Under the pieces are notes generated by a model. That model was given only the letters and a program-made list of their open reading frames with translations. It had not been told where the DNA came from and made no database searches. Positions 28,548 through 41,266 of a stretch of 41,266 nt of DNA are shown here, piece by piece (the stretch's first letter is position 1; each line of letters begins with the position of its first letter). The DNA comes from Lentibacillus persicus (lineage in GTDB: Bacteria > Bacillota > Bacilli > Bacillales > Amphibacillaceae): the NCBI RefSeq assembly GCF_900112705.1, contig NZ_FOMR01000012.1, positions 1 through 41,266 of the forward strand, in the 5' to 3' direction. Made by a program: the position numbers and the translations under genes.

Positions 28548-29882
28548 TTAAAGAATTCCCAGTGAATTTAAAAACACAATAACGATCGTAACCGGCACGA
28601 GCCAGCGCATAATTTGAAACCAAAGCTGGTATGCACTGTGGGACAGATTGTTGGCATAGGAAAATTCCTGCTTCATCAGTGCTTTGTCCATTCTGATACC
28701 AATAAATAATGCCATCATGAGGCATCCGGCCGGGAGCATGATATTGCTTACAAGAAAGTCACTGGCGTCAAAGACCGTTTTTCCAAAGATTTGAAAGTCT
28801 GCCAAAACACTTGAAGAAAGAGCAGCGGGAATGCCTGCGATAAAGACAATTACCCCTGATATCCATGTAACTTTTACGCGTGATATGTTTTTGCGTGCAG
28901 TGACCGCAGCTGTCATAATCTCAAGCATGCTGAATGCAGATGTGAAAATAGCAAACAAAAACAATAACAGAAACAGTGTCAGAAACAATTCACCGAGGGG
29001 CATTTGCGCGAAAGCGGCCGGCAGGACCATGAATAATAGCCCTGGGCCCTCTGTCGGCTCCAGCCCAAATGAAAAGACCACCGGAAATATGGCGAGCCCG
29101 GCTAAAAGTGAAACAAAGATGTTCATGATGGACACTGATGCAGCTGAAAACGGAAGACTCACGTCTTTACCGAGGTAGGAGCTGTATGTCACCATGACGG
29201 AAAAACCGACCGCCAATGCGAAAAATGACTGACCGAGCGCATATAAAATGCCTTCTGCCGTAATTTTTGAAAAATCCGGCTGCAGAAAGAACCTGAGGCC
29301 TTCTGCTGCACCTTCAAATGTAATCGACCGGATAACCAGTATAATGAAAAAGATAAATAATAAAGGCATCATCACTTTACTGGCTTTTTCAATGCCCGCT
29401 TTAATACCAAATGAAACAATAATGACAGCGATAATTAAAAATAAAGCATGACCGGAAATGGCTATAAGCGGATTCCCGGTTATCATTCCGAATAGTTGTT
29501 CATAGTTGGCCCCCTCGGATATGACGGAGCCAAACAACGACATGACACTGTATATAAGCACCCAGCCGCCGACAACACTGTAAAATGACAAAAGTATAAA
29601 TGAACCGGCGACACCCCAATAACCGATGACCCGCCAGCTGCTGCCGGGCGCAAGTTTTTGAAATGCACTGACAGCTTCTTTCTGGGCACCGCGTCCAATG
29701 ATAAATTCAGTAATTAACAGGGGTAGCCCGATGATTAACGTAAATGCGATAAAAAGCAGGAAAAAAGCGCCGCCCCCGTTCATCCCTGTCATATAAGGGA
29801 ACTTCCATATAGCTCCGAGGCCGATTGCCGCACCTGCCGATGATAAAATAAATCCAATTCGTGATGACCAATGATCGCTCAT
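28548..29882 (-). CDS. Sodium-dependent NSS-family transporter (YocR/YhdH type)
   Basis: A 444-residue neurotransmitter:sodium symporter family protein. The unwound first membrane segment GLGAIWKFPYMTGMNGGGAFFLLF carries the sodium and substrate-binding motif of LeuT-like transporters. About eleven membrane segments are seen, as in other short bacterial members. Likely substrates are amino acids or amines driven by sodium. The ATG at 29882 follows GGAAAGGAACT, and a minus-strand TATAAT lies at 29917-29922. Given the amino-acid catabolic genes just to the right, lysine or another amino acid is a plausible cargo; that is inference. Confidence 0.88.
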   Translation of the reverse strand: MSDHWSSRIGFILSSAGAAIGLGAIWKFPYMTGMNGGGAFFLLFIAFTLIIGLPLLITEFIIGRGAQKEAVSAFQKLAPGSSWRVIGYWGVAGSFILLSFYSVVGGWVLIYSVMSLFGSVISEGANYEQLFGMITGNPLIAISGHALFLIIAVIIVSFGIKAGIEKASKVMMPLLFIFFIILVIRSITFEGAAEGLRFFLQPDFSKITAEGILYALGQSFFALAVGFSVMVTYSSYLGKDVSLPFSAASVSIMNIFVSLLAGLAIFPVVFSFGLEPTEGPGLLFMVLPAAFAQMPLGELFLTLFLLLFLFAIFTSAFSMLEIMTAAVTARKNISRVKVTWISGVIVFIAGIPAALSSSVLADFQIFGKTVFDASDFLVSNIMLPAGCLMMALFIGIRMDKALMKQEFSYANNLSHSAYQLWFQIMRWLVPVTIVIVFLNSLGIL

Positions 29883-30064: not shown

Positions 30065-30697
30065 TTAGCCAGCTTGGCGCAGTACGGCACGGACCGGGCT
30101 GCCATCAGCGCCACTGATGGCAAGCGGCAGCGCAATGAGTTCATAGCGGCCGGGCGTAATATGATCAAGCATCAGGTTTTCCAGAATAAAAATATCGTGC
30201 CGGTAAAGCGCTTGGTGTGTCGCTAAATCTTGACTCTCCGGCGGGTCAACAGAAGGCATATCAACACCGAGCAGTTTGACCCCGTTTTCATGTAAGAATT
30301 CTGCAATACTTGTGTCCAGCTCCGGCATTTGTTCGGGAAACCGTTCCGGATTATTGGGCAGCGATGTATGCAGCAGAACACGTGTCACACCATGTAGATT
30401 AAACGCCTGAAGCGTTTCGGCGGTAATTTTCTCAGTGTGGCTGACATCAAGCACAATGGCTTCACCGATATACAGGTTTAAGTCCAGTTGATCAACTGTT
30501 TTGCCGTTGCTGTCGTAGTGGAATGGCGCGTCTATATGGGTGCCGGTGTGGACGCTGCCGGCAATTTGCCCAACATTGACCAAGCCGGTTTGTTTTTTTG
30601 TATGCGTGAATGAATAGTCAAACGGCATATCACCAGGAAAGTGGGCCATGTCATTTGTCAGCGGCTGTGATATATCAATCCATTTTGGTTTTGTCAT
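30065..30697 (-). CDS. Cyclase-family hydrolase (kynurenine-formamidase-like)
   Basis: A 210-residue metal-dependent hydrolase of the cyclase/KynB family. It has HTGTHIDAPFHY, the zinc-binding signature, and GVDMPSVDPPES...HQALYRHDIFILENLML, which resembles bacterial arylformamidases. The start is placed at 30697 (MTKPKWIDIS). The frame is open further upstream, but that extension translates the 20-bp repeat at 30833-30930 and is not real protein. AAAGGAG lies 12 nt before the ATG, slightly long. No kynureninase or tryptophan dioxygenase gene is near, so the true substrate may be another amide or lactone. Confidence 0.82.
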   Translation of the reverse strand: MTKPKWIDISQPLTNDMAHFPGDMPFDYSFTHTKKQTGLVNVGQIAGSVHTGTHIDAPFHYDSNGKTVDQLDLNLYIGEAIVLDVSHTEKITAETLQAFNLHGVTRVLLHTSLPNNPERFPEQMPELDTSIAEFLHENGVKLLGVDMPSVDPPESQDLATHQALYRHDIFILENLMLDHITPGRYELIALPLAISGADGSPVRAVLRQAG

Positions 30698-30832
30698 CCG
30701 GCAATGATGCTCCTTTCGTATTTGTATAATTAGATCTTTCTTTATCATAACAGTGAAATGAACTGTATGGAATGTTGACAAACCGAGAAGGGATTTTCGG
30801 GAAGATGTTTCATATCTTGAGCTGATGTTTCC

Positions 30833-30930
30833 GTTCTCCGGCCCATATATTTGTTCTCCGGCACATATTTCTGTTCTCCGGCCCATATATTTGTTCTCCG
30901 GCACATATTTCTGCTTTCCGCCCATGTTTG
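30833..30930 (-). repeat. 20-bp alternating tandem repeat, array 1
   Basis: Four exact 20-bp units at 30833, 30853, 30873 and 30893 plus a diverged fifth at 30913. On the plus strand each begins GTTCTCCG; units 1 and 3 are identical, units 2 and 4 are identical, so a 40-bp dimer is tandemly duplicated. They alternate GCCCATATATTT with GCACATATTTCT. The same unit in opposite orientation ends this window (41187-41266). The rest of 30698-31103 holds promoter-like sequence only. Confidence 0.9.
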
Positions 30931-31103: not shown

Positions 31104-32282
31104 ATGTCATTTGTCTCGGATAAAGTCAGTAATTTGCCGCCCTATTTATTTTCCGAATTAAACCAAAAGAAAACAGCGCTTCAGGCAAAGGGTGTGGACG
31201 TCATTGATTTGGGAATCGGGGCACCGGATTTGCCGACGCCTGATTTTGTTATCAACCGATTAATTAAAGAGTCACAGGTTGCTGCCAATCACGGCTATTC
31301 GGTTTATAACGGTTCTAAGGAATTCAGAGAAGCAGTCGCTCACTTTTACAAGACCCACTACAAGGTGGAATTGGATCCTGAGACTGAAGTACTTGCTGTG
31401 ATCGGTTCAAAGGAGGGTATCGCTAATTTAATGCAGGCAACTGTCAATCCGGGAGAAATAGTGCTGGTGCCGGACCCGGGTTATCCGGTATACAGGACAG
31501 CCGTACATTTAGCAGGCCTGGAAAGTGAGACATTACCGCTCGATGAGGCGAACGGCTATAAACCGTTATATAGCCATATCGATCCTAACGTTATTAATCG
31601 ATCGGCCTTAATGTTATTGAATTACCCGAATAACCCGACCGCGGCCATTGCTGATTACAACACTTTTTTGAAAGCGATTGCATTTGCCAGGAAAAATCAG
31701 CTTTTACTGGTGCACGATGCGGCCTATGACTTGCTTACATTTAATGGGTACAAATCACCCAGCGTAATGCAAGTGCCTGAAGCAAAAGAATGGGCGGTGG
31801 AGTTTGGCTCATTGTCGAAGAATTTTAATATGGCCGGATGGCGCATCGGCTATGCGGTTGGCAATAAGAACGTTATAAAGGCGCTTTCCACCATTAAAAG
31901 CAACATTGACACCAGTCAGTTTCTTCCTATTCAAAAAGCTGCTGCTACTGCTTTAAAAAGTGACTTCTCAGCAGTTGATAACCATAAAAAAATCTATGAA
32001 AAACGAATGGAAACGATGTATGCGGCGTTACACAGGCTGGGTATTCAGGCAGATAAACCGAATGGAACAATCTTTCTCTGGGCGAAAGTTCCGCAAGGTT
32101 ATACATCTATGTCATTTGCCGAAAAATTACTTGACGAAGCGGGTGTTATTGTTACTCCCGGAAATGCGTTCGGCTCGAAAGGCGAAGGTTATTTCAGGGT
32201 GGCGCTCACCGTTACGGTGGAGCGATTGAAAGAAGTCATCAGCCGAATAGAACAGTTGAATTTAAATGAGGTGATACATTAA
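31104..32282 (+). CDS. PLP-dependent class I/II aminotransferase
   Basis: A 392-residue fold-type I aminotransferase resembling LL-diaminopimelate/aspartate-type enzymes. Motifs: LGIGAPDLPTP, NYPNNPT, the Schiff-base lysine K239 in GSLSKNFNMAGWRIGY, and a C-terminal FRVALTV with the substrate-carboxylate arginine. ATG 31104 follows GGAGGTG. It opens a plus-strand operon with the ThDP enzyme immediately after its stop. In the proposed lysine pathway it would convert 2-aminoadipate to 2-oxoadipate. By sequence alone another amino donor (for example arginine, as in AruH) cannot be excluded. Confidence 0.85.
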   Translation: MSFVSDKVSNLPPYLFSELNQKKTALQAKGVDVIDLGIGAPDLPTPDFVINRLIKESQVAANHGYSVYNGSKEFREAVAHFYKTHYKVELDPETEVLAVIGSKEGIANLMQATVNPGEIVLVPDPGYPVYRTAVHLAGLESETLPLDEANGYKPLYSHIDPNVINRSALMLLNYPNNPTAAIADYNTFLKAIAFARKNQLLLVHDAAYDLLTFNGYKSPSVMQVPEAKEWAVEFGSLSKNFNMAGWRIGYAVGNKNVIKALSTIKSNIDTSQFLPIQKAAATALKSDFSAVDNHKKIYEKRMETMYAALHRLGIQADKPNGTIFLWAKVPQGYTSMSFAEKLLDEAGVIVTPGNAFGSKGEGYFRVALTVTVERLKEVISRIEQLNLNEVIH

Positions 32283-33956
32283 ATGGAGACAGGTGTCCGA
32301 ACGCGTAAAACCGTGACAGGCGGACAGGCGATCGTTGAGTGTATGAAAATTGAAGGTGTCCGTGAGTGCTTCTGTGTTCCCGGTGAAAGTTATTTGCCAT
32401 TGCTTGATGCACTGTATGATGAAGAAAGTATTAACCTGATAGCCGCTCGTCATGAAAGTGGTGCAGCGTTTATGGCAGAAGGCTATGCGAAAAGAGCATT
32501 AAAGCCCGGAATCGTAATGGCAACAAGGGGCGTTGGCGCCTCCAATCTTTCTATAGGTGTTCACACCGCCTACCAGGACTCGACGCCGATGGTTGTATTT
32601 TTGGGGCAGGTGCACAGTAAGAACCGGGGCAGGGAAGGGTTCCAGGAGATTGATCTTGATCAGTATTTCGGACATATTGCCAAATGGGCTGTTGAAGTGA
32701 AGGATGCTGCTCGGATAGCTGAGATCACACAGCGTGCTTTCCGAATTGCGAAAACCGGAAGACCGGGGCCTGTTGTAGTGTCCCTGCCTGAAGATATATT
32801 GCCCCGAAAAGCCGAAATGGTGTTTAGTCCGGCGACTGTCCTCCCTCAGCCAGTCCCGGCCAAAGAGGAGATTAACCATATCAAGCAATTGCTTTCTGCA
32901 GCTAAAAAGCCGCTTATTATTGCCGGCGGAGGGGTAAAAAGTGCCGGTGCAGAAGAAAAATTGATCACATTTGCAGAAGCGTATCATTTGCCTGTTGTGG
33001 CGGCGTTTCGCAGACAGGACGTTTTTCCGAATCATCACCCGCTCTATGCCGGCCATTTAGGTCTTGGGACGAACCCAAGGATTTTAAAAACTGTCGAGGA
33101 AGCAGATACAATCCTTGCCATCGGCACCCGCCTTTCGGAAGTAACCACACAAGACTACGAAATTATCACACCGGAGAAAAAACTAATCCACGTTGATATC
33201 AGTTTTGAAACAATCGGTAAAGTGTTCGCCCCCGACGCCGGCATTGTGGCGGACGCCGGTGAAGCATTGCAAGCATTAACGGATATCGGCATTCAAACCA
33301 GCTGGCAAACGTGGGCAGATGAACGCAGGCGTGCATTTGAAGAGGTGAGCTCGCTCGATGTATCGCATAAAGACACTATATACAAGCATATAGTGGCACT
33401 GATGGAAGATATTTTGCCAGATGATGCTTTTTTGACCAATGACGCCGGAAATTTTGCCGGCTGGCTGCATGCTTATTACCCGTTCAAAAATAAACAGACG
33501 TATACAGGGCCCACTTCCGGTGCCATGGGGTACGGGTTACCATCAGCAATAGGAGCAAAGCGTGCCGAACCTGGTAAACCGGTCATCGCTTTGGCAGGCG
33601 ATGGTGGTTTCATGATGACGATGCAGGAACTCGAAACGGCGGTCAGGTATCAGATTCCTGTCATCAGTATCGTATTTAATAATCAAATGTATGGAACCAT
33701 CCGGATGCACCAGGAGATGAACTATCCGGAAAAAGTGATCGGCACTGATTTGGGAAAGGTCTCTTTCAAAGGTGTAGCTGAAAGTGTAGGAGCGGACGGT
33801 TATTTAACCAATACGCCAAATGAATTTGCGAAAGCACTTAAACAGGCATTGTCGAAAAACGCGCCGGCTGTAATCGAAATTATGACGGAGAAAGAACAGA
33901 TTTCCGTTTCTTCCACGATTTCACAACTCCGTGATCGTGCTGAAAATAAAGAATAG
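32283..33956 (+). CDS. ThDP-dependent 2-oxoacid decarboxylase (acetolactate-synthase-like)
   Basis: A 557-residue three-domain ThDP enzyme. The catalytic glutamate is E58 in ARHESGAAFMAEGYA, and GDGGFMMTMQELETAVRY...NNQ is the ThDP/magnesium motif near residues 440-465. The central domain spans about 190-330. The length and the aminotransferase/aldehyde-dehydrogenase neighbours resemble AruI-type 2-oxoacid decarboxylases rather than true acetolactate synthase, and no small regulatory subunit gene is present. ATG 32283 directly abuts the upstream stop, so translation is coupled. The inferred substrate is 2-oxoadipate, giving 5-oxopentanoate. Acetolactate synthase or glyoxylate carboligase activity is the main alternative. 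Confidence 0.82.
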   Translation: METGVRTRKTVTGGQAIVECMKIEGVRECFCVPGESYLPLLDALYDEESINLIAARHESGAAFMAEGYAKRALKPGIVMATRGVGASNLSIGVHTAYQDSTPMVVFLGQVHSKNRGREGFQEIDLDQYFGHIAKWAVEVKDAARIAEITQRAFRIAKTGRPGPVVVSLPEDILPRKAEMVFSPATVLPQPVPAKEEINHIKQLLSAAKKPLIIAGGGVKSAGAEEKLITFAEAYHLPVVAAFRRQDVFPNHHPLYAGHLGLGTNPRILKTVEEADTILAIGTRLSEVTTQDYEIITPEKKLIHVDISFETIGKVFAPDAGIVADAGEALQALTDIGIQTSWQTWADERRRAFEEVSSLDVSHKDTIYKHIVALMEDILPDDAFLTNDAGNFAGWLHAYYPFKNKQTYTGPTSGAMGYGLPSAIGAKRAEPGKPVIALAGDGGFMMTMQELETAVRYQIPVISIVFNNQMYGTIRMHQEMNYPEKVIGTDLGKVSFKGVAESVGADGYLTNTPNEFAKALKQALSKNAPAVIEIMTEKEQISVSSTISQLRDRAENKE

Positions 33957-33981
33957 ATTATCAATAATAGGAGGTATTATC

Positions 33982-35478
33982 ATGCGAGAAGCACTGCTGA
34001 ATACGAAAAAGCTGCAAAATTTTATCGACGGTGAATGGTTGGAAGCACGTGAAGCGGCCCCTGTTGTTAACCCGGCAAACGGTGAAACAATCGTGGATGT
34101 GCCCTTATCAAAAGGTGAGGATGTCAATAAAGCTGTGCTGGCAGCAAAAAAAGCACAAAAGGAATGGGCACTGGTACCCGCACCACAGCGGGCTGAAGTG
34201 TTATTTACAGCAGGTCAAATGATGAAAGAGCGAAAAGAACATCTTTCCAAGCTTTTGACAATGGAAAACGGCAAGGTGCTTGAGGAAGCACGCGGAGAGG
34301 TCCAGGAAGGGATTGACATGGCATTTTATATGGCCGGTGAAGGGCGCCGTCTATTCGGTCATACAACACCGGCAGAGCTGCCAAATAAATTTTCCATGAG
34401 TCAGCGTGCCCCTGTTGGTGTTGTCGGTATCATCACTCCGTGGAACTTTCCGATTGCAATCGCAACCTGGAAGTCGTTTCCGGCAATCGTTGCAGGGAAT
34501 GCAGTTATCTGGAAGCCGGCAACCGAAACACCCATCATGGCATTTGAATTGGCAAAGATCTTGGAAGAAGCAGGTCTTCCAAAAGGTGTGCTGAACGTTG
34601 TATATGGCAAGGGATCTGAAGTGGGCGATGCGATGGTGCATCATGATGATATTCGGGTCATTTCCTTTACAGGGTCCAATGAAACCGGCCGCCATATTGC
34701 GAGTGAGTGCGGCAAACAATTGAAGAAAGTTTCGTTGGAGATGGGCGGCAAGAACGCCATTACCGTTATGGATGATGCTGATCTTGATCTGGCAGTAGAG
34801 GGTATTATCTGGAGTGCATACGGAACAAGCGGTCAGCGATGCACTGCAGCAAGCCGTGTCATCGTCCACGAAAATGTGAAGGAAAAGGTAGAGGAGCGGC
34901 TGCTTGCTCAAATTGAGAAACTGACAATCGGTGATGGCCTCGATGAATCAAATAAAGTAGGACCAATTATTAATAAAGCCGGGCTTGAAAAAATTGAAAA
35001 GTATATACAAATCGGCAAAGAAGAAGGCGCCAAATTAATGGCTGGCGGCTATGTGCTAGATAATGATAACTATGCGGCTGGCCATTATTTCGCACCAACC
35101 TTGTTCACGGACTGTACAGCGGATATGCGCATATCGCAGGAAGAAATCTTCGGTCCGGTAATTTCATTAATTCCGGTAAAAAGTTTTGAAGAAGCAATCG
35201 AAGTGAACAATGGCGTGAAATACGGACTGTCGAGCTCGATTTTTACAACCGATGCCAACAGGGTTTTCCAGGCCCAGCGTGACCTTGATACAGGAATCGT
35301 TTATGTTAATGCAGGAACCACAGGAGCAGAAATACACCTTCCGTTTGGCGGTACAAAAGGCACAGGCAATGGTCACCGCGACTCAGGCGTTCAGGCACTT
35401 GATGTATTTACGGAGTGGAAAGCTGTCTATATCGATTACAGCGGCAAGCTTCAACGTGCACAGATTGATACGGAGTAA
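33982..35478 (+). CDS. Aldehyde dehydrogenase (aminoadipate-semialdehyde type)
   Basis: A 498-residue NAD(P)-dependent aldehyde dehydrogenase. Catalytic residues are C287 in GTSGQRCTAASR and E253 in SLEMGGKNAI; the cofactor site includes TPWNFPIAI and FTGSNETG. The C-terminal GTTGAEIHLPFGGTKGTGNGH resembles ALDHs acting on aminoadipate semialdehyde or similar dicarboxylate semialdehydes. ATG 33982 follows TAGGAGG, 25 nt after the ThDP gene. With the lysine 6-dehydrogenase next door it would oxidise allysine/piperideine-6-carboxylate to 2-aminoadipate, and might also oxidise 5-oxopentanoate to glutarate. The second role is speculative. Confidence 0.88.
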   Translation: MREALLNTKKLQNFIDGEWLEAREAAPVVNPANGETIVDVPLSKGEDVNKAVLAAKKAQKEWALVPAPQRAEVLFTAGQMMKERKEHLSKLLTMENGKVLEEARGEVQEGIDMAFYMAGEGRRLFGHTTPAELPNKFSMSQRAPVGVVGIITPWNFPIAIATWKSFPAIVAGNAVIWKPATETPIMAFELAKILEEAGLPKGVLNVVYGKGSEVGDAMVHHDDIRVISFTGSNETGRHIASECGKQLKKVSLEMGGKNAITVMDDADLDLAVEGIIWSAYGTSGQRCTAASRVIVHENVKEKVEERLLAQIEKLTIGDGLDESNKVGPIINKAGLEKIEKYIQIGKEEGAKLMAGGYVLDNDNYAAGHYFAPTLFTDCTADMRISQEEIFGPVISLIPVKSFEEAIEVNNGVKYGLSSSIFTTDANRVFQAQRDLDTGIVYVNAGTTGAEIHLPFGGTKGTGNGHRDSGVQALDVFTEWKAVYIDYSGKLQRAQIDTE

Positions 35479-35533
35479 GCTCTTTTTTAAAGTGCCGGAT
35501 ATGACAAAGGGAGAGGACTCTCTCTGAAAATGC

Positions 35534-35546
35534 GGGGACAGTCCCC
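35534..35546 (+). other. GGGGAC-A-GTCCCC palindrome in the ALDH-lysDH gap
   Basis: A perfect 6-bp palindrome with a single central base lies between the aldehyde dehydrogenase and the lysine dehydrogenase genes. It has no T run, so it is more likely a processing, mRNA-stability or repeat element than a terminator. Confidence 0.35.
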
Positions 35547-35585
35547 CTAAACGCAAAAAAGATTACAGGCAGGGAGTGGATGCGT

Positions 35586-36758
35586 GTGAAGATAGGTGTG
35601 CTTGGTTCCGGATTGATGGGAAAGGAAGCTGCACGGGATTTAGTACAAAGCGAAGGTGTAACAGCAGTTGGGTTGGCTGATATTAATATTGATGCGGCCG
35701 AACAAGTTGTTAATCAGCTTGGTTCACCTAAATTAACAGCTTACCAGGTCAACGCCAAAGACGAAGAGGAGCTTGGCAATTACATGCAGCAGTTTGACGT
35801 CGTTATTAATGCATTATTTTATTCATTTAACGAAATTGTTGCCCAAACGGCGATAAAAGCTGGCGTTCATTCAGTTGATTTGGGAGGGCACATTGGCCAT
35901 GTAACCGATAAAGTGCTCGAAATGCATGACGATGCCCGGACAGCGGGCGTGACATTAATTCCGGATCTGGGTGTTGCTCCGGGTATGATTAATATTCTAT
36001 CAGGCTATGGGGCAAGCAAGCTTGATAAATTGGATGAAATTAAGTTATATGTAGGGGGAATTCCGGTAAACCCTGAGCCGCCATTTGAGTATAACCATGT
36101 TTTTTCAATGGAAGGTGTTTTTGACCATTATACGGATCCGGCGCTGATTATACGTAATGGTATAAAACAAGAAATCGAATCGTTATCAGAAGTGGAACGT
36201 GTTCATTTTGAGAAATTCGGACCGCTTGAAGCGTTTCATACCTCCGGCGGGACATCAACACTATCATTCTCGTATCCTGATTTAAAAACACTGGAATATA
36301 AAACAATTCGCTATCCTGGTCACGCAGAGAAATTCAAACTTCTTGTTGATTTGAATTTGACGCGGATGGATTATTCAGTTGATGTGAATGGTCAGGAAAT
36401 TAACCCGCGCGAAGTATTGCTTAAGGTGCTTGATCCAATCGTTGACTTGGGCGAGAAAGATGACGTGGTATTGCTGAGAGTAAAAGTGAAGGGTGAAAAG
36501 GCCGGCAACACCGAAGCCCATGAATTTGAAATGACAACGTATAAAGACCGCGAACATAATGTGACAGCGATGGCCCAAGCGACTGCGAACACGATATCAG
36601 TCGTGGCTCAGATGATTGCCGACGGTACTATAAGCAAACGTGGAGTTTATCCGCCCGAGCAAATTGTTCCCGGTGATGCCTATATCAAGAAAATGGCAAA
36701 AAGAGGCGTAAAGATTTGCGAATCCGGCAGCGATGCGAAAACACACGTAACAAGCTGA
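35586..36758 (+). CDS. lysDH: L-lysine 6-dehydrogenase
   Basis: A 390-residue NAD-dependent enzyme of the saccharopine-dehydrogenase superfamily that oxidatively deaminates the epsilon-amino group of lysine to allysine, which cyclises to piperideine-6-carboxylate. The Rossmann start [16 protein letters not shown], the stretch [24 protein letters not shown], the [22 protein letters not shown] motif and the ending [14 protein letters not shown] closely match the Geobacillus enzyme as I remember it. GTG 35586 is chosen over ATG 35580 because GGGAG at 35572-35576 sits too close to the latter, and the product then starts MKIGVLG. It gives the whole cluster its likely function. Confidence 0.9.
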
Positions 36759-36842
36759 TCATTTAATCTTACGAAAGCTTTAAAAAAACCAATTATAATT
36801 TGTAAATGTTTCTAATTATGAATACAGCAAGGAGTTTTCGTC

Positions 36843-37583
36843 ATGAACCAAAGTGTCATTAAAGCTTTAAAATTACTTGACCATTTTTCAGCCGATACAC
36901 CAGAATTGACATTAAAGGAAATCGCCGATAAGTCAAATCTTCCAAAGCCGACAGCATACAGGCTTTTATCATCACTTGAATCGAGCGGTCTTTTAACCAA
37001 AACTAAGGAAAACGAACATGACAGCAAATATCAATTGGGGCTGAAACTGCTGGAACTTGGTCAAATTGTTTCTGACCAGCTCGAAATCCGGCATATTGCG
37101 CTGCCTTTTATGCAGCAGCTTGCCCGCGACATAAATGAGGTTATTCATTTGGTTATTCGGGATCAGGATGAAGCTGTCTATATTGAAAAAGTGGACAGTT
37201 CACGAGCCTTAACGCTGAATACAAGAGTCGGCAAAAGCTCTCCACTTTATATGGGTTCAGGACCGAAGATGCTTCTGGCCCACATGCCGCGGGGTCGTCA
37301 GGAAGCAATCTTGGAGGATACCTCTAATAAAAAGAAACGGCTCCGGGAACTGCAAACGATTTATGAAACGAGTTATGCCTTCAGTATCGGGGAACAGGAT
37401 CCTGATACAACTGGCATTTCGTTCCCTATTTATGACTACAGCAATCAAGTGGTTGCCGCATTGGCAGTAAGCGGTTTGTCAAGCCATTTTGAAGGTGAAA
37501 ATCTGCAGGCGCTGAAGCAAAAAACAAAATCAACAGCTGAAACAATATCCAAAAAACTTGGCTTTCGTGAATCTGTTTACTAG
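36843..37583 (+). CDS. IclR-family transcriptional regulator
   Basis: A 246-residue regulator. The N-terminal winged helix (about 1-65) shows SVIKALKLLDHF, LTLKEIADKSNLPKPTAYRLLSSLESSGLL. The C-terminal effector domain contains YIEKVDSSRALTLNTRVGKSSPLYMGSGPKMLLAH and a late SFPIYDYSNQVVAALAVSG, typical of IclR. ATG 36843 follows AAGGAG. It lies 84 nt after the lysine dehydrogenase gene in an AT-rich gap that may hold its own promoter. The likely effector is a pathway intermediate. Candidate operators are the palindromes at 31067-31091. Confidence 0.92.
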   Translation: MNQSVIKALKLLDHFSADTPELTLKEIADKSNLPKPTAYRLLSSLESSGLLTKTKENEHDSKYQLGLKLLELGQIVSDQLEIRHIALPFMQQLARDINEVIHLVIRDQDEAVYIEKVDSSRALTLNTRVGKSSPLYMGSGPKMLLAHMPRGRQEAILEDTSNKKKRLRELQTIYETSYAFSIGEQDPDTTGISFPIYDYSNQVVAALAVSGLSSHFEGENLQALKQKTKSTAETISKKLGFRESVY

Positions 37584-37602
37584 CTGGAAGGGGCTGATAC
37601 GA

Positions 37603-37920
37603 ATGAATACGATATTTATTGCAGGACACGCCAGGCTGCCATCCGGAATGGCTGCCAGGAGCATGTATGAGACACTTACAATTACAGCTGAAATTGATAA
37701 GAAATACGGTGTTATCATTACCGCCAATTGTACACTCGCGACCGAGCACGGCAGAGACTTTATCCACCACCTGCTAAGAGGTCATAGTCTGCAGGATGGC
37801 GTTGATGAACCTGCTGAGGCGATGAAAGAACACTATCTCGGAAAGGCCGGCAATGCCCTTTTATCTGCGTTGTATGATTTGTACAGGCAGTATGAGCAAT
37901 ATAGGGAAAGTCTTGACTAG
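37603..37920 (+). CDS. DUF3870-family protein
   Basis: A 105-residue soluble protein of the DUF3870 type: FIAGHARLPSGMAA at the start, a central VIITANCTLATEHGRDFI and the ending LGKAGNALLSALYDLYRQYEQYR. The family has no established function but tends, as far as I know, to sit in catabolic operons beside dehydrogenases and IclR or similar regulators. ATG 37603 follows GAAGGGG 19 nt after the IclR gene, so the two are cotranscribed. A small-molecule-binding or regulatory role in this pathway is conjecture. Confidence 0.75.
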   Translation: MNTIFIAGHARLPSGMAARSMYETLTITAEIDKKYGVIITANCTLATEHGRDFIHHLLRGHSLQDGVDEPAEAMKEHYLGKAGNALLSALYDLYRQYEQYRESLD

Positions 37921-37930
37921 CAATCCTGAT

Positions 37931-38005
37931 CTACAGCGATTCACCCGCAGACTACAGTGATTGCGTTTTAAACTATAGCGACTCCGGACAAAACTACAGC
38001 GATTC
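37931..38005 (-). repeat. 21-bp-period repeat array, second copy
   Basis: CTACAGCGATTC-type cores start at 37931, 37952, 37973 and 37994, exactly 21 bp apart; the two inner cores are diverged (CTACAGTGATTG, CTATAGCGACTC). They are the reverse complement of the core at 16267-16400. Confidence 0.8.
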
Positions 38006-38032
38006 TGTCACAATCAACAGCCTCAATCTCAA

Positions 38033-38076
38033 AAAAGGATAGCTGCATTCCCCGGCAGGATGCAGCTATCCTTTTA
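38033..38076. terminator. Bidirectional terminator between convergent operons
   Basis: AAAAGGATAGCTGCAT (to 38048) and ATGCAGCTATCCTTTT (from 38060) form a perfect stem of about 16 bp with A and T tracts at the ends. It serves the plus-strand catabolic operon and the minus-strand CoA genes alike. Confidence 0.92.
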
Positions 38077-38080
38077 ATAC

Positions 38081-39283
38081 TTAAACCTGTACCTGATTGC
38101 CTTCCCATGCTGGAAGCATTTTGTTTAATGGTTTATCCTCACGATAGCCCAGTGCGTAATCTGCCTGCATGAGTGTATGCACTTCCCGTGTTCCTTCGTA
38201 TATAACAGGGGCTTTCGAGTTGCGCAAATAACGCTCAACCGGATATTCATCGGAGTAGCCATAGGCACCGTGGATTTGTACAGCATCGTCTGCAGCCTTG
38301 TTGGCAAAATCGCACGCCTGCCATTTGGCCATGGATGTTTCTTCGGTATTGCGTTTTCCTCTGTTTTTCAGTTCGCCGGCACGGTATACGAGCAGGCTGC
38401 TCATTTCAAGACCGGCCTTCATTTTGGCAATCATTTGCTGGACAAGCTGATGCTGACCAATGGGCTTGCCGAATGTTTCGCGCTCATTTGCGTATTGGAC
38501 ACTTGCTTCAAGGCAGGCGCGGATTTGTCCGACAGCACCTGCAGCAACCGTAAAGCGGCCATTATCGAGCGCGGCCATGGCAATTTTAAACCCTTCACCT
38601 TCTTCACCGAGCAGGTTTTCTTTGGGCACCTTCACGTGGTCAAAAAAGATCTCACCAGTATTCCCTGAGCGGATGCCGAGTTTTCCTTTCGTTGCTTTGG
38701 AATCAAATCCTTCCCAGCCGCGTTCAACGATAAAAGCCGAAATCCCCTTGTGACGTTTAGCTTTATCGGTATAAGCAAATACAAGAAAGTGGTCAGCTGT
38801 ATCGCAAAGTGAAATCCAAGCTTTAGAGCCATTTAAAATATAATAATCGCCATCCTTGACTGCAGTGGATTGAAGCGAGGCAACATCCGAACCGGCACCA
38901 GGCTCTGTCAGACCGTAAGCACCGACTTTTTCACCCTTCGCCTGTGGCACGAGGTACTTCTGCTTTTGTTCTTCCGTCCCCCACTGCAGAAGTGTCATGC
39001 TGTTCAGCCCGGTATGAACGGAAACAGCTGTACGAAATGCCGTGTCGCCGCGCTCAAGCTCCTCACAAACAATGGCCAATGAATTATAATCCATCCCGCT
39101 TCCGCCATACCGCTCCGGGATGCAGACACCCATCAAACCAAGGTCAGCAAGCCGTTGCATAATGGCAGGATCAAATTGGCCTTTTCGGTCCCATTCGGCA
39201 ATATAAGGCATGATTTCGTTGTCGACAAAGCTTCTGACCGTGCTGCGCAACATATTTTGTTCTTCTGAAAAATTAAAATCCAT
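38081..39283 (-). CDS. Acyl-CoA dehydrogenase, glutaryl-CoA dehydrogenase-like
   Basis: A 400-residue FAD acyl-CoA dehydrogenase. The catalytic base is E363 in VIYEGTREVHTL, at the position of the GCDH glutamate. In DTAFRTAVSVHTGL, R84 and S88 align with the arginine and serine that bind the glutaryl carboxylate in glutaryl-CoA dehydrogenase (from memory of the human enzyme: YRSAMSVQ). This favours glutaryl-CoA, giving crotonyl-CoA or glutaconyl-CoA. The ATG at 39283 uses TAGGAGATG, overlapping the stop of the upstream CoA-transferase gene 11 nt away, so the two are coupled. A short-chain acyl-CoA dehydrogenase of other specificity is the alternative. Confidence 0.85.
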   Translation of the reverse strand: MDFNFSEEQNMLRSTVRSFVDNEIMPYIAEWDRKGQFDPAIMQRLADLGLMGVCIPERYGGSGMDYNSLAIVCEELERGDTAFRTAVSVHTGLNSMTLLQWGTEEQKQKYLVPQAKGEKVGAYGLTEPGAGSDVASLQSTAVKDGDYYILNGSKAWISLCDTADHFLVFAYTDKAKRHKGISAFIVERGWEGFDSKATKGKLGIRSGNTGEIFFDHVKVPKENLLGEEGEGFKIAMAALDNGRFTVAAGAVGQIRACLEASVQYANERETFGKPIGQHQLVQQMIAKMKAGLEMSSLLVYRAGELKNRGKRNTEETSMAKWQACDFANKAADDAVQIHGAYGYSDEYPVERYLRNSKAPVIYEGTREVHTLMQADYALGYREDKPLNKMLPAWEGNQVQV

Positions 39284-39294
39284 CGAATCATCTC

Positions 39295-40455
39295 CTAGTG
39301 TTTTTGTTTGGAAATCCCTAATTGTTCCAATAGCGAATCGGTGTGTTCGCCGGCATCAGGCGGGTGACGGCGTGTGTTCACCGGTGTACGTGATAGTTTC
39401 AAAGGACTGCCGATCATCCGGATACTGCCTGCTGTCGGGTGTTCACTGTTGATAAACATATCCCGCGCTTTCAGCTGTGGGTCTTTTACAACTTCATCAA
39501 TAGATTGAATCGGGCCGCACGGGATGCTGTTTTTCTGAAGCTTCTCCTGCCAGAAAGCAGTCGATTCAGTTGAGAGCACCTCCTGCAGCAGCGGAATTAA
39601 TACGCTGCGATTCTCAACACGGTCCGGGTTTGTCGTGAAGCGTTTATCTGATCCATATTCCGGTTTGCCCAACATCGTGCACAGCCGCTGAAATTGCTGA
39701 TCGTTTCCTACTGCTATCACCATCTGACCGTCCTTGGTGTCGAATGTTTGATAAGGAACGATATTCGCATGCTGATTACCCAGCGCGGTTGGTTTCTTCT
39801 CTGCCATCAAATAATTGCTTCCAATATTAACAAGGGCACTGACAGCCGAATCATACAGTGAAAGGTCAATCTTTTGCCCTTTGCCGGAGTATGTGCGTTC
39901 CAAGAGCGCTCCCTGAATGCCGATGCAAGCGTATAGACCGGTTAAAATATCGGTAATGGCAACTCCGACTTTCTGCGGTCCGGACGCACTGTCACCGGTA
40001 ATGCTCATTAACCCGCTCATCGCCTGAATAATGAAGTCATAGCCTGGCATATCTTTATAGGGTCCAGTTTCACCAAAGCCTGTGATGGTGCAGTAAACAA
40101 GTTCCGGGTTGATGTCTGCCAACGTTTCATAATCGAGACCAAGCCGATCCATCGTTCCGGTTTTAAAGTTGTTGATGACAACATCACTTCCACGGACAAG
40201 CTCCTTGATCGCCTTAATCCCTTCCTCGGATTTCAAATCAAGCGTTATACTTTTTTTGTTCCGATTGGCGCAAAGATAATAGGCACTTACGCCATTTTGA
40301 AAGGGCGGTCCCCATTTCCGTGTTTCGTCGCTGCCGCCGGGTGCTTCGACTTTAATAACGTCTGCACCGAGATCTCCGAGAATCATCGTGCAATATGGAC
40401 CTGCCAGCACACGGGATAAGTCAAGGATTTTTATATTCTCAAGTGCTCCGGTCAT
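39295..40455 (-). CDS. Class III (CaiB/BaiF) CoA-transferase, glutarate-type
   Basis: A 386-residue family III CoA-transferase. The N-terminal ILDLSRVLAGPYCTMILGDLGADVIKVE and the catalytic aspartate D169 in VGVAITDILTGLYA are clear. The closest human counterpart in kind is SUGCT, which makes glutaryl-CoA from glutarate with succinyl-CoA or similar as donor. The start at 40455 (MTGALENIK) follows AAAGGAGTGAGGAA; an in-frame extension to 40500 has no support. It is the first gene of a two-gene minus-strand operon with the acyl-CoA dehydrogenase. Other dicarboxylate substrates (for example oxalate, mesaconate) are possible. Confidence 0.85.
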   Translation of the reverse strand: MTGALENIKILDLSRVLAGPYCTMILGDLGADVIKVEAPGGSDETRKWGPPFQNGVSAYYLCANRNKKSITLDLKSEEGIKAIKELVRGSDVVINNFKTGTMDRLGLDYETLADINPELVYCTITGFGETGPYKDMPGYDFIIQAMSGLMSITGDSASGPQKVGVAITDILTGLYACIGIQGALLERTYSGKGQKIDLSLYDSAVSALVNIGSNYLMAEKKPTALGNQHANIVPYQTFDTKDGQMVIAVGNDQQFQRLCTMLGKPEYGSDKRFTTNPDRVENRSVLIPLLQEVLSTESTAFWQEKLQKNSIPCGPIQSIDEVVKDPQLKARDMFINSEHPTAGSIRMIGSPLKLSRTPVNTRRHPPDAGEHTDSLLEQLGISKQKH

Positions 40456-41186: not shown

Positions 41187-41266
41187 AGAAACATGGGCGG
41201 GGGAACGAAAATATGTGCCGGAGCGCGGGAATATGGGCGGGAGAACAAAAATATGTGCCGGAGCGC
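41187..41266 (+). repeat. 20-bp alternating tandem repeat, array 2 (runs off the end)
   Basis: Four 20-bp units at 41187, 41207, 41227 and 41247. Units 2 and 4 carry ATATGTGCCGGAGCGC; units 1 and 3 carry ATGGGCGGG then GAAC. They alternate as in the array at 30833-30930, but in the reverse orientation. The array is still going at the last base. Confidence 0.88.

Follow-up and report, generated by a model that had tools for sequence, protein, structure and literature searches.

The stretch of DNA analysed here, called the window, comprises 41,266 nucleotides of the Lentibacillus persicus contig NZ_FOMR01000012.1 (positions 1 to 41,266). Between positions 31104 and 40455 it carries a cluster of genes in two convergent groups, one on the plus strand and one on the minus strand, which an earlier note made from the sequence had singled out as a candidate complete pathway from lysine to crotonyl-CoA. 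We consider it probable that the cluster encodes a lysine catabolic route to crotonyl-CoA via non-oxidative decarboxylation of 2-oxoadipate; judged from gene neighbourhoods, this would be a variant of lysine catabolism with a predicted 2-oxoadipate decarboxylase. The genes that the note had named are all present and its coordinates are right, but a DUF3870 gene that is part of the cluster had been omitted from its list. The genes are as follows.

31104-32282, plus strand: aminotransferase class I/II (PF00155), LL-diaminopimelate-aminotransferase type; predicted, by a substrate that we infer, to be a 2-aminoadipate aminotransferase
32283-33956, plus strand: enzyme dependent on thiamine diphosphate (ThDP), family PRK08199 (NF006052); predicted 2-oxoadipate decarboxylase, which would be the key new step
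33982-35478, plus strand: aldehyde dehydrogenase (ALDH1; PF00171); predicted, from its linkage to lysine 6-dehydrogenase, to be a 2-aminoadipate-semialdehyde (piperideine-6-carboxylate) dehydrogenase
35580-36758, plus strand: predicted lysine 6-dehydrogenase (LysDH), saccharopine-dehydrogenase-like (PF16653 and PF03435)
36843-37583, plus strand: IclR-type regulator, matching KdgR and PcaR/PcaU-type models with scores under their cut-offs
37603-37920, plus strand: DUF3870 protein of 105 amino acids (PF12986, matched on the longer open reading frame 37558-37920)
38081-39283, minus strand: acyl-CoA dehydrogenase carrying Arg84, Ser88 and Tyr362, predicted to be a glutaryl-CoA dehydrogenase (GCDH) of the decarboxylating kind
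39295-40455, minus strand: class III CoA-transferase (PF02515); predicted succinyl-CoA:glutarate CoA-transferase

A GGAGG motif lies upstream of the aminotransferase ATG at 31104, the start of the ThDP gene directly abuts the aminotransferase stop codon, and a gap of 11 bases separates the CoA-transferase and GCDH-like genes. Counts of promoters and terminators differed from those in shuffled sequences by no more than about one standard deviation and were not used. The IclR-type protein probably regulates the cluster. His9, Cys43 and His49 of the DUF3870 protein are invariant in 41 sequences; a fold search with it gave no match at E ≤ 0.001, and the IscU chain 2z7e, with probability 0.97 and E 0.069, was disregarded.

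In the proposed route, oxidation of lysine by LysDH, at the epsilon amino group, would give 2-aminoadipate semialdehyde (piperideine-6-carboxylate), which ALDH1 would convert to 2-aminoadipate and the aminotransferase to 2-oxoadipate. Glutarate semialdehyde (5-oxopentanoate) would then arise from 2-oxoadipate by non-oxidative decarboxylation through the ThDP enzyme. A second aldehyde dehydrogenase of the succinate-semialdehyde dehydrogenase (SSADH) type would yield glutarate, a role that in this organism might fall to the product of a gene at G000:C5:58950, to ALDH1 or to another aldehyde dehydrogenase. The class III CoA-transferase would turn free glutarate into glutaryl-CoA, from which a decarboxylating GCDH would form crotonyl-CoA. 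Every substrate in this scheme is predicted, most notably the one assigned to the ThDP enzyme; the gene families, the Arg and Tyr of the dehydrogenase, the synteny and the co-occurrence are observed.

Conservation of the cluster in related genomes

Searching public genomes with LysDH gave 73 loci, labelled mostly as Bacillaceae and close kin such as Lentibacillus, Virgibacillus, Oceanobacillus, Thalassobacillus and Scopulibacillus; two labels stand out among them, that of L024 as Roseburia sp. and that of L049 as Paenibacillus bovis. All six enzymes (aminotransferase, ThDP enzyme, aldehyde dehydrogenase, LysDH, GCDH-like dehydrogenase and class III CoA-transferase) occurred together in 38 of the 73 loci, 28 of which also carried a second aldehyde dehydrogenase. 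Taken singly, ALDH1 was found in 60 loci, GCDH and the CoA-transferase in 53 each, the ThDP enzyme in 46, the aminotransferase in 43 and the IclR regulator in 34, while no partner enzyme at all was seen in six. These counts are lower bounds, since contig ends cut some loci and the caller of open reading frames missed some short genes, and because the 73 loci are related, they do not count as independent events. Chance falls far short of explaining the clustering. The aminotransferase and ThDP genes lay on the same strand and at most 30 bases apart in all 41 loci holding both, and L105 kept all six enzymes in a different order. DUF3870 was present in 40 of the 73 loci (33 of these 40 also with the ThDP enzyme) and adjoins the ThDP gene in L086 and L087, both of which lack LysDH.

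Three modules can be discerned, namely ALDH1-LysDH, aminotransferase-ThDP and a second aldehyde dehydrogenase (ALDH2) with GCDH and CoA-transferase. The first stood without aminotransferase, ThDP enzyme, GCDH and CoA-transferase in 9 of the 60 loci bearing ALDH1. The second was found away from LysDH in L097, L098 and L103, and outside the order in four loci of family f58, there with an IclR gene whose product is 52-59% identical to that of the window, as well as in L135; for these latter five only the stretches themselves were covered, and LysDH elsewhere in those genomes was not sought. The borders of the modules coincide with two proposed intermediates, 2-aminoadipate and glutarate semialdehyde. 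Between ALDH2 and GCDH, two further genes lie in L018, one typed as omega-aminotransferase and the other as amino acid permease, and L026 carries genes 84% and 88% identical to them in the same place. Such an arrangement would be expected were 5-aminovalerate to enter at glutarate semialdehyde as well.

We also assessed co-occurrence across an even sample of 299 genomes from the host's order (116 genera). The genome counts hold at the E-values given here, and in many genomes only part of the first-look candidates was scored. LysDH was found in 53 genomes (E ≤ 1e-80), the ThDP enzyme in 54 (E ≤ 1e-120) and GCDH in 88 (E ≤ 1e-135). LysDH and the ThDP enzyme were shared by 44 genomes, that is, the ThDP enzyme occurred in 44/53 LysDH genomes compared with 10/246 others (p 6e-34), and by genus in 24 of the 30 LysDH genera (p 2e-13); GCDH accompanied LysDH in 46/53 genomes and the ThDP enzyme in 46/54. 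The two genes lay within 15 kb of each other in 36 of the 44 genomes and farther apart in 8. When the 36 linked genomes were removed, the association persisted (8/17 compared with 10/246, p 1.5e-6), also after leaving out G189, whose ThDP enzyme is only 50% identical (p 1.7e-5). For linkage to GCDH, 42 GCDH places were typed (in LysDH or ThDP genomes, where the genes were possibly near) and the rest were judged by eye.

Operons of independent arrangement were seen as well. In G231 (L088), a genome in which LysDH was not found at E ≤ 1e-80, one strand carries an amino acid permease, an amino-acid dehydrogenase (PF00208, Glu/Leu/Phe/Val-type), the CoA-transferase, GCDH, the ThDP enzyme and an aldehyde dehydrogenase. 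An amino acid would here be deaminated, decarboxylated, oxidised and passed to a CoA-transferase and a glutaryl-type dehydrogenase; since the product must suit the CoA-transferase, 2-aminoadipate fits and is the best reading of that amino acid. In G022 (L096), an aldehyde dehydrogenase, the ThDP enzyme and a partial GCDH run up to the contig end, and L092 combines the ThDP enzyme with a Glu/Leu/Phe/Val-type amino-acid dehydrogenase, a permease and an aldehyde dehydrogenase, with no GCDH within the stretch examined. GCDH, CoA-transferase, an M17 aminopeptidase, DUF3870 and the ThDP enzyme stand in a row in G035 and G235. In L042, L054, L086 and L087 the CoA-transferase and DUF3870 are separated by a gene of the M17 leucyl-aminopeptidase type; it was typed in L042 and L086, and the others are 57-71% identical to the L042 gene. 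At class level, outside the order, 378 genomes gave 24 ThDP matches, 14 of which were looked at. L134 shows ThDP-ALDH1-LysDH, L142 has a 56%-identical CoA-transferase whose start lies some 30 bases beyond the ThDP match, and other stretches among these 14, such as L138, L139 and L145, showed no partner enzymes beside the ThDP gene.

Predicted enzymes of the proposed route

The closest solved chain to LysDH is PH1688 (3abi, 139.9 bits), labelled uncharacterised, and LysDH is the single match in its own genome at E ≤ 1e-80. A lysDH of Bacillus thermoamylovorans is reported to work in E. coli (PMC9437556). The aminotransferase passed the NF006756 model (512.5 bits, cut-off 507) and did not reach the equivalog TIGR03540 (503 of 593 bits).

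In the GCDH-like dehydrogenase, Arg84, Ser88, Tyr362 and Glu363 are present in 57/57 aligned proteins (those longer than 300 amino acids, which leaves out among others L065, and more than 60% identical). In GCDH the Arg holds the distal carboxylate, and enzymes of the decarboxylating type have Tyr, not Val, next to the catalytic Glu on its N-terminal side. The acyl-CoA dehydrogenases 4l1f and 5ol2 have Gly at the position of Arg84 and share the Ser and the Tyr, whereas the glutaryl-CoA dehydrogenase 3mpi, which we take to be the non-decarboxylating enzyme of Desulfococcus, shares the Arg and has Asn for Ser88 and Val for Tyr362. The Arg/Ser pair that had been named as glutaryl-binding is thus present, but only its Arg is diagnostic. 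The dehydrogenase fits the Arg and Tyr rule of decarboxylating GCDH, and Tyr362 makes crotonyl-CoA the likelier product. The best solved chain for the CoA-transferase is succinate--hydroxymethylglutarate CoA-transferase 9br6.

The ThDP enzyme scores 751 bits against NF006052 (cut-off 539) and belongs to PRK08199. Glu35, GDG at 439-441 and NN at 466-467, which presumably bind ThDP, are invariant among 37 sequences. The structure of the enzyme was predicted with a pLDDT (predicted local distance difference test) of 90.1, and the nearest solved structures are HKA synthase 8x3x (32% identity) and AHAS 6lpi (29-30%); the fold comparison pointed to the general AHAS-type family and gave no hint of the substrate. 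The enzyme is predicted from its gene neighbourhood to decarboxylate 2-oxoadipate. KivD is reported to take alpha-ketoadipate as a substrate (PMC7900509), so that decarboxylation of 2-oxoadipate is chemically feasible. In a tree of 45 ThDP rows, 25 of which are the window and 24 loci chosen from the 73, the LysDH label was clustered, with 4 changes compared with a mean of 10.0 when shuffled and none of 500 shuffles as low. A separate lysine clade was considered and rejected, as the tree gives no single one.

The second aldehyde oxidation was traced through ALDH2, which lies on the GCDH strand beside GCDH in 31 of the 73 LysDH loci, two low-identity aldehyde dehydrogenases of 33 (L059 and L061) having been dropped from this count as unrelated. 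It was typed as SSADH in both loci scanned, scoring 643.8 bits (L005) and 650.8 bits (L018) against the SSADH model, whose cut-off is 646.35.

A number of findings weigh against the proposed route. The first group concerns the aldehyde dehydrogenases. The route needs two aldehyde oxidations and only one aldehyde dehydrogenase, ALDH1, is in the cluster, ALDH2 being absent from it, so that the pathway is incomplete in the window and not complete as had been claimed. Nor did ALDH1 prove to be of the curated aminoadipate-semialdehyde type: it scores 435 bits against the piperideine-6-carboxylate model NF050084, with a cut-off of 730, and its best model is alpha-ketoglutaric semialdehyde dehydrogenase (532 of 770 bits); its role as piperideine-6-carboxylate dehydrogenase is drawn from its linkage to LysDH. 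The own genome holds 15 aldehyde dehydrogenases matching ALDH2, the best of them (G000:C5:58950) 53% identical, compared with 65-96% to the same query for ALDH2 of the other loci. We therefore rejected a relocated ALDH2 elsewhere in the genome; the C5:58950 gene looks like a paralogue, and the second oxidation would fall to its product, ALDH1 or another enzyme of this family. The aldehyde dehydrogenase of L088 is of the alpha-ketoglutaric semialdehyde type (668.7 of 770 bits) and not of the SSADH type.

The second group concerns the other enzymes. The GCDH-like dehydrogenase reaches 378.5 of the 470 bits of the glutaryl-CoA dehydrogenase model NF045552, and the CoA-transferase 448 of 750 bits for its best NCBIfam model, succinate--glutarate CoA-transferase NF052585. 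The fold of the ThDP enzyme is general and close to carboligases. Its family also occurs near a glucarate dehydratase (L091:8211-9866), beside enolase-superfamily, epimerase and TRAP-transporter genes (L089, 8309-9958) and, in a LysDH genome, beside a sugar-diacid-type regulator (L104). On the tree, the GCDH-linked L088 and L096 enzymes group with the glucarate-linked one of L091, and that of L088 groups with those of L091 and L104. Finally, in 9 of the 53 LysDH genomes no ThDP enzyme was matched at E ≤ 1e-120; 7 of these 9 have GCDH, namely G011, G021, G057, G099, G116, G144 and G155.

Competing routes and known pathways

The reaction order set out in the earlier note remains the best fit to the comparative evidence, namely the three-module synteny, the co-occurrence, the operon in which an amino-acid dehydrogenase replaces the aminotransferase, the lack of HglS and CsiD matches and the single full-length 2-oxoglutarate dehydrogenase E1; its completeness and its type of aldehyde dehydrogenase did not stand, and its substrates are predictions. 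HglS (PF07063) gave no match in the own genome or in the 299 genomes of the order, with a control search positive in 2 of 14 (E. coli and Deinobacterium), which agrees with the note's claim that HglS is bypassed and answers its proposal to look for HglS/DUF1338 in the genome. CsiD (PF08943) gave no match in the own genome (control positive in 1 of 14). The note had also proposed to search for a 2-oxoadipate dehydrogenase. No dedicated second E1 of the TIGR00239 type was found in the own genome, but one full-length E1 over the cut-off is present, along with two short matches far below it.

An alternative has the aminotransferase and the ThDP enzyme act on lysine itself. Lysine would give 6-amino-2-oxohexanoate and then 5-aminopentanal, ALDH1 would form 5-aminovalerate, and an omega-aminotransferase with ALDH2 would lead to glutarate, LysDH being a side branch. 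The gene order aminotransferase-ThDP-ALDH1 fits this chemistry, which works in an engineered strain with an oxidase replacing the aminotransferase (PMC7900509); the aminotransferase is diaminopimelate-aminotransferase-like, and L018 and L026 carry an omega-aminotransferase. However, LysDH is left unexplained, and ALDH1 lies with LysDH in 60/73 loci, in 9 without the other enzymes. Relatives of the L018 omega-aminotransferase (E ≤ 1e-40) were found in only 2 of the 73 loci, and the L088 operon has none. We regard this alternative as unlikely.

Slightly less likely still is a conversion of 2-oxoadipate to glutaryl-CoA by the 2-oxoglutarate dehydrogenase complex, in which case the ThDP enzyme would have another substrate and be a mere frequent neighbour. 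The full-length E1 could serve such a step, and the seven genomes with LysDH and GCDH but no ThDP match agree with it, suggesting that another 2-oxoadipate step may exist there. The presence of the CoA-transferase presupposes free glutarate, though, which the dehydrogenase complex would bypass, so that both this enzyme and ALDH2 are unexplained, as are the association of the ThDP enzyme with LysDH in genomes where the two are unlinked and the nearness of the ThDP gene to GCDH in genomes without LysDH (G035, G235, G231).

That LysDH and ALDH1 chiefly make 2-aminoadipate as an osmolyte, with catabolism secondary or separate, is improbable: LysDH has its nearest relatives in Lentibacillus and Virgibacillus, which live in salty places, and the pair stands without the other enzymes in nine loci, but the aminotransferase, the ThDP enzyme, GCDH and the CoA-transferase are clustered with it here and in 38 of the 73 loci. 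The osmolyte role is reported for Ruegeria pomeroyi, which likewise has LysDH and a semialdehyde dehydrogenase (AASADH), there with consecutive locus tags (PMC4334477); the window cluster instead joins the pair to a downstream route.

The proposed non-oxidative route can also be set beside known pathways. It would have in common with the mammalian saccharopine/2-oxoadipate dehydrogenase route the intermediates up to 2-oxoadipate and, later, glutaryl-CoA, but saccharopine would be absent, and the dehydrogenase complex would give way to a CoA-transferase acting on free glutarate. Like the 5-aminovalerate route (DavTD-type), it would run through glutarate semialdehyde and glutarate, followed by CoA activation and GCDH, and relatives of the window cluster have an SSADH-type aldehyde dehydrogenase; glutarate semialdehyde would here arise from 2-oxoadipate and not from 5-aminovalerate. 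The D-lysine pathway of Pseudomonas putida has the same branch point at 2-oxoadipate (PMC7286885), but there HglS makes 2-hydroxyglutarate with Fe and O2. An engineered E. coli glutarate pathway (Wang 2017, as cited in PMC7900509) also decarboxylates an alpha-keto acid toward glutarate; that pathway is artificial and biosynthetic, whereas the window route would be natural and catabolic and use another ThDP family.

Flanking features and wider meaning

A 20-base tandem repeat (unit like TTCTCCGGCACATATTTCTG) flanks the cluster at 30828-30925 and, inverted, at 41208-41266. It has 12 matches in the own genome, with further copies on contigs C11 and C12, and a stricter pattern was found in none of the 105 loci covered. 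To its left lies an orphan arylformamidase gene (30065-30697, minus strand, 210 amino acids from the likely start). At this site relatives carry tryptophan 2,3-dioxygenase, formamidase and kynureninase (typed in L005); no kynureninase over the cut-off was found in the own genome, and the repeat occupies its position. A sodium:neurotransmitter-symporter-type transporter (28548-29882, minus strand), near the cluster in 28 of the 73 loci, is a possible importer of the amino acid.

Searches of an open-access library found no description of a route from LysDH to glutarate or of a 2-oxoadipate decarboxylase, and within that scope the route seems undescribed; most subscription journals lay outside it, and absence in print is not shown. 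2-Oxoadipate is a branch point of lysine breakdown for which two natural fates are usually named. The ThDP enzymes of the L091 and L089 sugar-acid clusters are possible decarboxylases of 2-oxo-3-deoxyhexarates, and six-carbon 2-oxo-dicarboxylates may be the common theme of the family. We see an evenly poised case for the wider proposition that PRK08199 ThDP enzymes are natural six-carbon 2-oxo-dicarboxylate decarboxylases, which in sugar-acid clusters would act on 2-oxo-3-deoxyhexarate and in Bacillaceae and kin would give 2-oxoadipate a third natural fate next to those through the dehydrogenase complex and HglS, one that joins LysDH catabolism to free glutarate and crotonyl-CoA.

If the proposed route is true, this third, non-oxidative fate would have a candidate gene in 54 of the 299 genomes of an order without an HglS match, and a ThDP family whose model calls it no more than 'thiamine pyrophosphate protein' would gain a function. 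LysDH catabolism in Bacillaceae would also become complete, and a natural enzyme would be at hand for glutarate production.

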